Assembly (NCBI GenBank): GCA_028342535.1
Contig: JAOLWQ010000001.1
Location: forward strand, 248,001 to 312,000
DNA from: Methylophilaceae bacterium
GTDB taxonomy: Bacteria; Pseudomonadota; Gammaproteobacteria; Burkholderiales; Methylophilaceae
DNA: 64,000 nucleotides
Direction of reading: 5' to 3'
The translations under genes were made by a program, and so were the position numbers. Below the pieces are notes generated by a model. That model was not told where the DNA came from. It saw nothing but the letters and a program-made list of their open reading frames with translations, and made no database searches. Below are positions 36,613-40,846 of this stretch, one piece after another (position 1 is the first letter of the stretch; each line of letters starts with the position of its first letter).

Positions 36613-37767
36613 ATGAAAATCTTTCTAGTTGGTGGCGCTGTCAGAGATAAAATACTAGGTATTCCAGTACATGATAAAGACTATTTAGTCGTAGGAAGCA
36701 CCCCAGAAGAGATGGTTAAATTAGGCTTTAAACCTATTGGAAAAGATTTTCCTGTATTTTTACATCCCAAAACTAAAGACGAGTATGCCCTTGCAAGAAC
36801 AGAGAGGAAAGTCGGTAAAGGTTATCATGGATTTAAATTTTATACATCACCTGATGTAACACTCGAGCAAGACCTAAGAAGAAGAGATATTACGATAAAT
36901 GCAATAGCCGAAGATAGGGATGGGAATATCTATGACCCATTCAATGGTAAAGATGATATTAAAAATAAAATTATTCGACATGTCAGCAACGCATTTATCG
37001 AGGACCCTTTGAGGGTTTTGAGGGTAGCTAGATTTGCATCATTGGATATTCAATTTAAAGTCCAGTCAGAAACATTAGTTTTAATGAAAAAGATGGTATC
37101 AAGTGGTGAGCTTAAGTCTTTATCAGTGGAGCGAGTCGTGACGGAGATTACAAAGGGTTTAGACGGTCGGAACCCAGATATTATGATTCACTACCTTTGT
37201 GAGTGCGGCGCACTGAATGAATTGCTTCCTGGACTTAATCCTAATCCAGATACATCTTTAGACTTTGTCAGTCTAGGGTTAGCAATGAAGGAGTCCACAA
37301 TCTCTTTGTCAGTTGAATCTAAAATCATAATGTTGTTATTGGTTCCTTACTTTGGTAAGTATTCTTTATTGAGCGCTGATAAGATCGCCTTAGAACAAAT
37401 AGAACCCTTATTAAAATACTTAAAACTTTCAAGCCTATCCCGTGAAATATTTAAGGGTATTAAAAATGAAGAGCAAAACCTTAAATATTTTTTAAAATTA
37501 AGCCCAGAAGCTAAACTAGATTGCTTATACCGACTTGATTTTTTTCGTCGCCGAAATATCATTTCAGAGATCTTGAATATCATTACTATGTTCTATAAGG
37601 CATTTGAGAATGCGACCTCAACAAATGATGAAATTAAGAAATTCCTAGATCTTTTCTCTGGAGAAATCAACCAATTAAGAAGTAAGTTGGACACCTCAAA
37701 ATCAGGAGATGAAATTAAAAAGTTGATATATCAAAATAGACTTTCTGTCCTTAAAAAAATTAGTTAA
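36613..37767 (+). CDS. cca: CCA-adding tRNA nucleotidyltransferase
   Basis: This enzyme builds or repairs the 3' CCA end of tRNAs. The class II head is clear: [20 protein letters not shown] (residues 4-23) with the catalytic DxD, then [12 protein letters not shown] near residue 89 and [14 protein letters not shown] near residue 131. The protein is 384 residues, shorter than the 412 of E. coli. The HD phosphohydrolase motifs found in the C-terminal half of many proteobacterial enzymes (such as CHDLGK) are not present, so this version probably lacks phosphatase activity. Its last eight bases overlap the convergent HAD gene. Confidence 0.93.
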
Positions 37768-38377
37768 CAATTAAATCTCTTAGTTTAGTTATTTTCTTAT
37801 CTATATATGATGGATTTTCTTTTTCATTAGTTAGCCATATTGTAGATAATCCAAATTGATTAGCTGTTTCAAGGTTCTCTTTAACATCATCTACAAAATT
37901 AGCTACTTTAATTTTATATTTCTTTATAAAAAATTCCATTGAAGTGGCGCTTGGCTTTGCTATATAATTTGCATCTTCTATGCTAAAAATTCCATCAAAG
38001 TAATTTTCAATCTGACATATCTGCAGTACTTTATTTGTATAATTTCTAGGTGCATTTGTGTAGAGTATCTTTTCTCCATTTATCGAAGTTAATACCTTTA
38101 TTAAGTCTGGCATAGGCACAATTAATTCTTCAAAATTTTCAAGTGTATGAGTAACTTCTAAAAATTCAGTTGGATTTATATTATGGTGCTTTATTAATCC
38201 TTCGATAGTAGCTCCATAATAGTCCCAATATTGCTGTCTTAATCTATCTGCTTCTGTAATGTTAATTTTTACTGATTTACTGATGTATTGATTAATTTTT
38301 TGATTAATTATCGGAAATATGTTTTTTTGTGCATCATGTAAGGTGTTATCAAGGTCGAATATCCAGGTGTCTTTCAA
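37760..38377 (-). CDS. HAD-family hydrolase, pyrimidine 5'-nucleotidase-like
   Basis: A 205-residue haloacid-dehalogenase-type phosphatase. Motif I is FDLDNTLHD with the nucleophile Asp8, motif II is LYTNAPRNY near residue 107, motif III is the Lys in [10 protein letters not shown], and motif IV is [12 protein letters not shown] near residue 167. The cap and motif order resemble the SDT1/pyrimidine 5'-nucleotidase subgroup, which dephosphorylates UMP or CMP and similar molecules. The start is TTG, one base after the argB stop, so it is probably the third gene of an argA-argB operon. The link to arginine synthesis is unclear. Confidence 0.8.
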
Positions 38378-38378
38378 A

Positions 38379-39236
38379 TTACTGATCCTTTATAAGGGTT
38401 CCAACACCCTGATCTGTTAATATTTCTAATAATAATGCATGTTCAACTCTTCCATCAATGATATGCACAGTATTTACTTTATGCTTAGCAGCATGAACTG
38501 CAGAGTTTATTTTAGGGAGCATGCCTTCAGATATGGTTCCATCAGCTATTAGCCTTCTAATTTCTTTTGGAATTAGACCTGTAATTAGATTATTTTTTTT
38601 ATCTAAAACACCTTTTGTATTAGTCATTAGTACTAATTTTTCAGCATTTAAAATCTCTGCAAATTTTGAAGCTACAACATCAGCATTAATATTATAAATT
38701 TTATTATCATTACCTATTCCAATTGGGGCAATAATTGGAATGACCCCATTATCTGTAAGATGCTTCATAAAGGATGGGTCGATACTCACTATTTCACCAA
38801 CATAACCAAGATCAATTGATTTACTCTGAACTTTTAATTTTTTAGCTTTGATAATCCCAATTGTTTTTTTATTACTATAGCTTTTACCATCCCCACCATT
38901 TTCTTTAATTAGTGAAACAATTTCTTTGTTGATATCATTTAAGACATTTGCAACGATTGTCATAGTTTCCTCATCGGTGACTCTTATTCCTTGCTCAAAT
39001 AATGGTTTCTTCCCCAATTTATTAAGAGACTTATTTATTTGAGGGCCTCCACCATGAATAACCACCGGATTCATTCCAACTAATTTAAGGAGTACTACAT
39101 CTTTAGCAAATGATTGCTTCAACTTATTATCAACCATAGCATTACCACCAAACTTAATAACAATCGTTTTACCAAAAAATTTTTTGATATAAGGAAGAGC
39201 TTCGCTTAAAACCTTTGATTTTTCGTTTGGAGTCAT
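38379..39236 (-). CDS. argB: Acetylglutamate kinase
   Basis: ArgB phosphorylates N-acetylglutamate, the second step of arginine synthesis. The amino-acid kinase fold shows [11 protein letters not shown] near residue 26, [14 protein letters not shown] near residue 58, the VTDEETM segment, and [15 protein letters not shown] near residue 180 (nucleotide and substrate binding). [13 protein letters not shown] and GGMLPK-like [13 protein letters not shown] follow. It has 285 residues, the arginine-sensitive cyclic-pathway size class. It starts three bases after the stop of the HTH-ArgA fusion gene, so the two are in one operon. Confidence 0.95.
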
Positions 39237-39239
39237 ATT

Positions 39240-40778
39240 TTATAACCTTTTGATAAAGTATTTAGAATTTCGTTCGATAGTATAGGTTTTCTTTCTTGTA
39301 TCGGGAATAAGTTTTCTATCTGTTAAGGAAAAATCGTTCTCAATAAACCAATGTTCCGATTGGGTTGTGAGTATAAATAATTTTTGTATATTTTTATTTA
39401 TCGCAATTTGCTCACAAAATTTTAATAATTTCTTTCCATAACCTAGATTCTGATAATTCTCATGAATGGCAAAGCAAGCCACTTCTATCATTTCTTCATA
39501 TTGATATAAAGCGACAGTTCCAATTATATTATGGCCATGCTCAATAACATAAAATGAGTTTATATCTTTATCTATATTATTATTTATTCTATCAATAAGA
39601 ATACCTTCTTTCTCCAAGGGCTCAATAATATTTATTATCTGTTTAATATCCCTTATTGTCGCAGCTCTAATATTTTGTAGAGAATGCTCTGTTAGGACTG
39701 TTCCAGAGCCTTTATCTGTGAATATTTCCTCTATGACTGAGCCATCAATATTCCTATTTATTAAGTGTACTTTTTCAATATTATTTTTGATAGCATATAA
39801 GCTACTTTTGAGAATATTGAAATCATGATAAGAAATAAAAGGCGCATTGTTTGGATCTTCAATACTTTCAATTAAATGTTTAGCTTTAGAAATAGTTAAT
39901 TCTGGAATTAACTCCCCACGGATATTTAAAATTCCATTTGTGTTTATGTAATAAATTAATTTTTCAGCTTTTATTGCTTGCGCCACATGTGCAGCAGTTT
40001 GCTCATAAGATAAATTGAATATATCTCCAATAGGCGAATAACCTAGGGGTGAAATAATGACAATCTCTCTATTATTTAACTTATCAGTTATGGCATTAGT
40101 ATCAATTTTTCTTATCTGCCCTGTTAGCTCCATATCTACACCATCAATCACACCTAGCGGCCTTGCAGTAATGAAATTTCCACTAGACACTTTAATATTA
40201 CTTCCAAGCAACGGAGAGTCCAAGATGCCTGAAGACAGAGTAGCCTCAATATTTGTTTTTATTATCCCATTTACCTCTACTATATCGTTTAACATTTCCT
40301 TTTTTGTAACTCTAATATTTCTAATTAATTTATTTTTATTTATTTTTCCTTTTAATTTATTATCAATTTGCGGTCTGATTCCATGAACTAAAATAATATT
40401 TATATTCATTGAATGTAATAAATTAATATCACAAGCGATTGATTTTAATTGATTATCACTAATAACTTCACCCCCTAATGCAATAACAAAGGTTTTATTA
40501 TTAAATTGGTTAATAAATTTTGCAGATAGTCTAAAATTTTCAATAAAACTTTTGGCCTCACTAACTAATTTATTTTGAGGAGAAACTTTGTCAAAAAATA
40601 CTAATGGAGATACATTAAAAGCTAAAGATAATTTTTCGAGCAAATTAAAGCTTATCTTTAATTCATTCCTCTCAATTCTAGATAGGTTGCCGGGATCTAA
40701 ATTTAATAGATTTGCTAAACAAGCAAGCGTCATATTTTGTTCTTGGCGCAATTTTCTTACAATTTGACCTGGGTTCAT
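39240..40778 (-). CDS. argA: N-acetylglutamate synthase ArgA with fused N-terminal XRE-type HTH domain
   Basis: The C-terminal 440 residues are a classical ArgA, making N-acetylglutamate from glutamate and acetyl-CoA. The kinase-like arginine-sensing domain has KTFVIALGGEVISDNQ, LLHSMNINIILVHGIRPQID and NIRVTKKEM. The GNAT domain ends LFILTTQSEHWFIENDF. Before it lies an uninterrupted extra domain (residues about 5-65) that reads as a helix-turn-helix of the XRE/Cro class: IVRKLRQEQNMTLACLANLL then PGNLSRIERNELKIS and LLEKLSLAFNVSPLVFF. The protein is 512 residues against 443 for E. coli ArgA. Two TGTA-N5-TACA dyads sit around its promoter, so it may be an arginine-responsive autoregulator. 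No alternative start at the ArgA boundary is needed. Confidence 0.92.
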   Translation of the reverse strand: MNPGQIVRKLRQEQNMTLACLANLLNLDPGNLSRIERNELKISFNLLEKLSLAFNVSPLVFFDKVSPQNKLVSEAKSFIENFRLSAKFINQFNNKTFVIALGGEVISDNQLKSIACDINLLHSMNINIILVHGIRPQIDNKLKGKINKNKLIRNIRVTKKEMLNDIVEVNGIIKTNIEATLSSGILDSPLLGSNIKVSSGNFITARPLGVIDGVDMELTGQIRKIDTNAITDKLNNREIVIISPLGYSPIGDIFNLSYEQTAAHVAQAIKAEKLIYYINTNGILNIRGELIPELTISKAKHLIESIEDPNNAPFISYHDFNILKSSLYAIKNNIEKVHLINRNIDGSVIEEIFTDKGSGTVLTEHSLQNIRAATIRDIKQIINIIEPLEKEGILIDRINNNIDKDINSFYVIEHGHNIIGTVALYQYEEMIEVACFAIHENYQNLGYGKKLLKFCEQIAINKNIQKLFILTTQSEHWFIENDFSLTDRKLIPDTRKKTYTIERNSKYFIKRL

Positions 40779-40780
40779 AT

Positions 40781-40793
40781 TGTATTTTTTACA
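40781..40793. promoter_or_regulatory. Dyad TGTA-N5-TACA just before argA (operator-like site 1)
   Basis: TGTATTTTTTACA lies two bases upstream of the HTH-argA start codon, in the leader. It shares half-sites and spacing with the dyad at 40833-40845. It would fit a dimeric HTH protein; the HTH domain of ArgA itself is the obvious candidate, but this is inference. Confidence 0.4.
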
Positions 40794-40816
40794 TATTTAT
40801 TGATAGTAATTAGATA

Positions 40817-40846
40817 ATTATAAGCTAAATAATGTAATTTATACAA
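40817..40846 (-). promoter_or_regulatory. Predicted promoter of the argA-argB operon
   Basis: On the minus strand a perfect TATAAT (40822-40817) lies 39 bp before the ATG. At 18-bp spacing the -35 candidate is TTGTAT (40846-40841), a weak match that lies within the dyad of site 2. Transcription would start near 40810. Confidence 0.45.
40833..40845. promoter_or_regulatory. Dyad TGTA-N5-TACA over the argA -35 region (operator-like site 2)
   Basis: TGTAATTTATACA has TGTA and TACA half-sites around a 5-bp AT core. It overlaps the rsmE stop codon and the predicted -35 of argA, a classic repressor position. Its centre is 52 bp from that of site 1, close to five helical turns, allowing both to be held on the same DNA face. 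Confidence 0.45.

Follow-up and report, generated by a model that had tools for sequence, protein, structure and literature searches.

A Cro/XRE DNA-binding head on N-acetylglutamate synthase of the Methylophilaceae and its predicted operator at argA

The N-acetylglutamate synthase (ArgA) of the Methylophilaceae carries a Cro/XRE helix-turn-helix (HTH) at its N terminus, and the promoters of its gene carry a conserved palindromic box, in most cases more than one copy of it. The reading that we favor, with a probability of roughly 0.7, is that this HTH-ArgA is a single-target trigger enzyme: it would repress the argA-argB operon from which it is expressed, and its binding to DNA would probably be modulated by arginine. 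As judged from sequence, predicted autoregulation of argA by HTH-ArgA is well supported; three steps are inferred, namely contact of the HTH with the boxes, repression upon binding and modulation by arginine. In its makeup the protein is a trigger enzyme, in which one chain joins an enzyme to a DNA-binding domain and the predicted operator lies at a gene of the enzyme's own pathway.

In the mechanism that we propose, each ArgA subunit would make N-acetylglutamate and bear a Cro/XRE head. Paired heads on the ArgA oligomer would bind 15-bp palindromes flanking the argA promoter, and bound heads would block RNA polymerase, leaving argA-argB repressed. Arginine, the end product, would be the co-repressor, binding beside the N-terminal helix and moving the helix that is joined to the HTH. 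A fuller version, in which one arginine-binding event both inhibits catalysis and sets the paired HTH heads on two or three operators across this ArgR-less family, has in our judgment about even odds. If true, the feedback loop would be unusually compact, with catalysis, allosteric inhibition and transcriptional repression of one step in one protein.

An earlier note on this DNA had suggested that the protein could be a trigger enzyme, sensing arginine and controlling transcription of argA-argB. The control part of that proposal has gained support from the paired candidate operator, which is conserved, is almost confined to argA and occurs where the fusion occurs; the arginine-sensing part is, by analogy with homologous enzymes, probable. 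The architecture was not known to the note's author from earlier descriptions, and our literature search, in a library short of subscription papers, likewise found nothing relevant on HTH-ArgA or its operator. What appears to be new is the predicted argA operator of the Methylophilaceae, a 15-bp palindrome, and, relative to trigger enzymes of the PutA and NadR type, the enzyme itself and its predicted single target.

The fusion gene and its product

In the window (the whole stretch of 64,000 nucleotides that was analyzed), the HTH-ArgA gene is a single uninterrupted frame that starts with ATG and occupies exactly positions 39240-40778, as the earlier note had reported, on the minus strand. Its 512-residue product consists of a Cro/XRE HTH (residues 1-62) and a complete N-acetylglutamate synthase. 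The features of the gene are as follows.

39240..40778, minus strand: HTH-ArgA fusion gene, 512 codons and stop
40593..40778, minus strand: Cro/XRE helix-turn-helix, residues 1-62 (HTH_3 score, five-helix model, SinR-DNA fold match)
40671..40694, minus strand: recognition helix, residues 29-36, PGNLSRIE (modeled as helix H29-36; conserved)
40551..40592, minus strand: variable linker, residues 63-76 (conservation; length differs among genera)
39684..40550, minus strand: N-terminal helix and amino-acid-kinase-like domain with the arginine site, residues 77-365 (PF00696)
39243..39683, minus strand: GNAT acetyltransferase domain, residues 366-512 (PF00583)

Residues 1-74 alone give a significant match to HTH_3 (PF01381; E 4.9e-10, 39.7 bits against a cut-off of 23), and the Cro/XRE-like stretches to which the note had pointed are found in the protein; the fusion is far beyond chance, with the same head present family-wide. 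Both enzyme domains named there, kinase-like and GNAT, are likewise matched (PF00696, PF00583), and the equivalog models score above their cut-offs: residues 74-512 match NF003641 (ArgA) with 505.6 bits (cut-off 344) and TIGR01890 (ArgA) with 439.6 bits (cut-off 202.9), each over the whole model length. By these scores the region is a classical ArgA, for which N-acetylglutamate synthase (NAGS) activity, a hexamer and arginine inhibition are predicted.

A structure model of full-length HTH-ArgA was poor (pLDDT 61, from an alignment of nine sequences), and the HTH was therefore modeled and fold-searched alone. The result is a canonical five-helix XRE domain with pLDDT 92-96 over residues 1-60, and its best fold match is DNA-bound SinR (3zkc; TM 0.74/0.89, rmsd 1.1). 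No in-frame ATG, GTG or TTG occurs over the stretch from about residue 46 to about residue 124, so that a headless ArgA could not arise by ordinary internal initiation.

Distribution and conservation of the fusion

An ArgA match is present in 147 of 150 Methylophilaceae genomes and in all 24 genera, and most of the alignments run through the HTH. Where the local alignment ends at residues 59-76, the frame at each locus inspected still has an HTH with GNLSRIERG; the sole exception has an assembly gap at the HTH position (locus L065). In one metagenome-assembled genome, the argA match is split over three frames (L040:5001-6514), probably by sequencing errors in the assembly, possibly in a broken gene. 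The HTH head is thus common to ArgA across the genera of the family.

Outside the Methylophilaceae, surveys of the order (349 genomes) and of the phylum (398 genomes) gave no intact ArgA frame reaching into an HTH among the best approximately 150 matches listed; in the listed matches, ArgA begins near model positions 51-78. Elsewhere in the class, the long frames with related HTHs that were inspected turned out to be other regulators or the frames of other genes, and were rejected as fused ArgA. The fusion looks like a family-wide acquisition that was then retained, even where the genome measures about 1.2 Mb.

Across 29 diverse members, the mean fraction of the most frequent residue is 0.88 in the recognition-helix columns (28-38), 0.72 in the kinase-like domain, 0.66 in the GNAT domain and 0.35 in the linker, which differs between genera in both length and sequence. 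Conservation of the recognition helix above that of the enzyme domains is the pattern that a working DNA-binding surface should show, and DNA binding is predicted from it. The residues of the DNA-contact helix are thus kept across homologs; their loss was the outcome that the note had named as counting against it.

Paired palindromes in argA promoters

Reading of the argA upstream regions first revealed repeated palindromes, from which a weight matrix was then built. The consensus in Methylophilaceae argA promoters is a 15-bp palindrome, WTGYR-WWWWW-YRCAW. In the window, the argA promoter contains the following elements.

40832..40846, unstranded: candidate operator box 1, TTGTATAAATTACAT (shares positions with the stop codon of rsmE and with a possible -35)
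40817..40822, minus strand: TATAAT, predicted -10 (18 bp past the TTGTAT of box 1, ahead of box 2)
40780..40794, unstranded: candidate operator box 2, ATGTAAAAAATACAA (spaced 52 bp from box 1; its end lies 1 bp ahead of the argA start codon)

The two boxes bracket a perfect TATAAT. A strict sigma-70 consensus scan of the window called no promoter, at argA because TTGTAT is a weak -35. Throughout the family, a -10-like hexamer lies downstream of the upstream box, mostly at 17 bp, with a mean similarity of 4.5 of 6 positions compared with 3.4 in shuffled sequence. This layout fits repression by occlusion of the polymerase, were the boxes to be occupied. As box 1 overlaps the rsmE stop codon, the last codons of rsmE appear to double as regulatory DNA in these streamlined marine genomes.

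With a threshold of at least 11 bits and expectations taken from dinucleotide shuffles, a box is present in 68 of 69 family argA promoters (3.9 in shuffles), and in 46 of them it recurs as two or more copies (0.05 in shuffles), counts that are not independent events because the species are related. Some promoters, several from the genus of the window among them, have only one box above the threshold. Box pairs (n = 52) are spaced by 22 to 52 bp overall, with 29 pairs at 28-32 bp, 3 at 41-42 bp and 17 at 50-52 bp, so that the main classes correspond to about three, four and five helical turns. Since the matrix had been trained on the same promoters, it was rebuilt from the boxes of two genera only as a check on circularity; on 36 promoters of other genera, this second matrix found a box in 33 (4.0 expected) and a pair in 25 (0.13 expected).

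Promoters outside this set gave chance levels: a box occurs in 0 of 30 argC promoters, in 1 of 30 argD promoters and, without any pair, in 1 of 18 argA promoters of non-fused betaproteobacteria, at loci located by BLAST. Other arginine genes were accordingly dropped as targets, with no box at argC and no pairs at argD, argF or argG (argJ, argH and carA are outside this set).

At the genome level, a strict two-box pattern matches 33 places in 61 family genomes, compared with none for the reversed pattern, and 22 of these places, in 20 genomes, lie directly upstream of argA by coordinates. The single-box pattern has 16 matches in the genome of the window, compared with 5 for the control; 14 are intragenic and the only two non-coding ones are the argA pair. 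Single boxes in GC-richer genomes were followed and set aside, as about half of the inspected sites are intragenic and their contexts hardly recur.

Among places off argA, genome G021 has an argA-like two-box site between a divergent TetR-like regulator and an apparent class-III aminotransferase (L227:2001-2047, also L235), possibly a second target in that lineage or a chance match. A near-identical two-box match is common to three genomes of a single genus (G019:C1:2542143, G081:C1:1196163 and G066:C4:477716), at what is apparently the same orthologous place, which reads like coding sequence.

The arginine site and the absence of ArgR

K273 and E351 of HTH-ArgA align with K201 and E270 of the NAGS of Neisseria gonorrhoeae and are invariant in the 29 members, and the arginine motif E-(L/I)-(F/M)-(T/S)-x-x-G-x-G-T is intact as EIFTDKGSGT at residues 351-360. 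In N. gonorrhoeae NAGS, arginine bound next to the N-terminal helix shifts that helix, and the hexamer becomes about 10 Å wider and about 20 Å flatter (PMC4490483). The HTH is attached through the short variable linker just ahead of the N-terminal helix that is homologous to the one moved by arginine, so it would be natural for arginine to affect DNA binding. By this analogy, arginine probably modulates DNA binding through the N-terminal helix. Biological logic would favor arginine as a co-repressor, with the opposite sign as the alternative.

No genome scored above the cut-off for ArgR (PF01316), either among 100 of the Methylophilaceae or among 150 of the order, fusion-less relatives included, and a domain search found no PF01316 DNA-binding domain in the HTH-ArgA protein. 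Because ArgR is also missing from the non-fused relatives, the lack of it is no specific reason for the fusion. HTH-ArgA is a concrete candidate for the control of arginine synthesis in a group without ArgR, and with the operator consensus at hand, the idea can be put to the test directly in methylotrophs that grow in culture.

Alternative explanations

The same operator and HTH evidence would be equally compatible with an ArgA that represses itself simply by its concentration, or that senses glutamate, acetyl-CoA or N-acetylglutamate, arginine being irrelevant to DNA binding. The linker, variable in both length and sequence, might weaken allosteric coupling, which would suit such a reading. 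We nevertheless regard it as unlikely, since the HTH adjoins the helix that arginine moves in the homolog; that the arginine site is invariant also speaks against it, though weakly, as feedback inhibition requires the site as well. We see less room still for the boxes belonging to another regulator, with the ArgA HTH serving a different DNA target or role. The connection between HTH and box is drawn from sequence, and a box of this type would be generic for XRE regulators, of which there are many; yet the ranges of box and fusion coincide, the argA promoters of non-fused betaproteobacteria lack pairs, and a regulator devoted almost solely to argA and kept over about 20 genera would be less economical than autoregulation.

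Two further readings seem very improbable. The HTH might be a relic or an oligomerization module that has lost DNA binding, as the enzyme part is complete in itself and relatives function without an HTH, but a recognition helix at 0.88, compared with 0.72 and 0.66 for the enzyme domains, argues against such a loss, as does the retention of the HTH in genomes of about 1.2 Mb together with conserved operators. Equally hard to credit are the palindromes as hairpins of a leader RNA: every box is nearly self-complementary and box 2 sits where a ribosome-binding site is expected, but the stems are very short and A/T-rich, the pairs hold set spacings, and box 1, lying upstream of the predicted -10, would fall outside a message from that promoter.

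Comparison with known trigger enzymes and arginine regulators

Self-repression by HTH-ArgA would have its nearest parallels among trigger enzymes of Escherichia coli. PutA also joins an enzyme and a DNA-binding domain in one chain, although its DNA-binding fold is a ribbon-helix-helix, not an HTH; it is a different enzyme of a catabolic pathway and is switched by membrane association when proline is present. NadR and BirA, like HTH-ArgA, have an HTH ahead of an enzyme from the controlled pathway, of Cro type in NadR too, but the enzymes and effectors differ, and the predicted target of HTH-ArgA is almost solely argA. PutA, a proline catabolic enzyme and repressor, is classed as a single-target trigger enzyme that binds only beside its own gene, and NadR and BirA are described as multi-target (PMC8249747).

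Residues 67-512 of HTH-ArgA are homologous to the classical hexameric NAGS/ArgA proteins (N. gonorrhoeae 2r8v, E. coli, Pseudomonas aeruginosa), with which the arginine motif is shared; unlike HTH-ArgA, these have no HTH among the matches listed outside the Methylophilaceae. ArgR/AhrC would share the proposed role, arginine-responsive repression of arginine genes, and ArgR is also a hexamer. Its domains are unrelated, it is not an enzyme, and it controls many arginine genes, whereas the HTH-ArgA boxes are missing at argC and argD. The head resembles the XRE regulators SinR and C.Esp1396I in fold and sequence, but these are stand-alone regulators without an enzyme domain. Should the favored reading hold, annotation of Methylophilaceae ArgA as a plain enzyme would need correction, and the protein would offer a clear structural test of how ligand state could travel from an allosteric ring to DNA.

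Extent of the operon

In the window, argA is directly followed by argB.

38379..39236, minus strand: argB (TIGR00761, 206 bits; start 3 bp past argA; predicted to share its operon)

The same arrangement, with argB next after argA on the same strand, is found in 57 of 70 loci. Since argC and argD lack operators, control seems confined to the first two steps of the pathway. One base pair after argB, on the same strand, lies a HAD gene of the pyrimidine 5'-nucleotidase type (37760-38377; TIGR01993, TTG start), which may also belong to the argA-argB operon.
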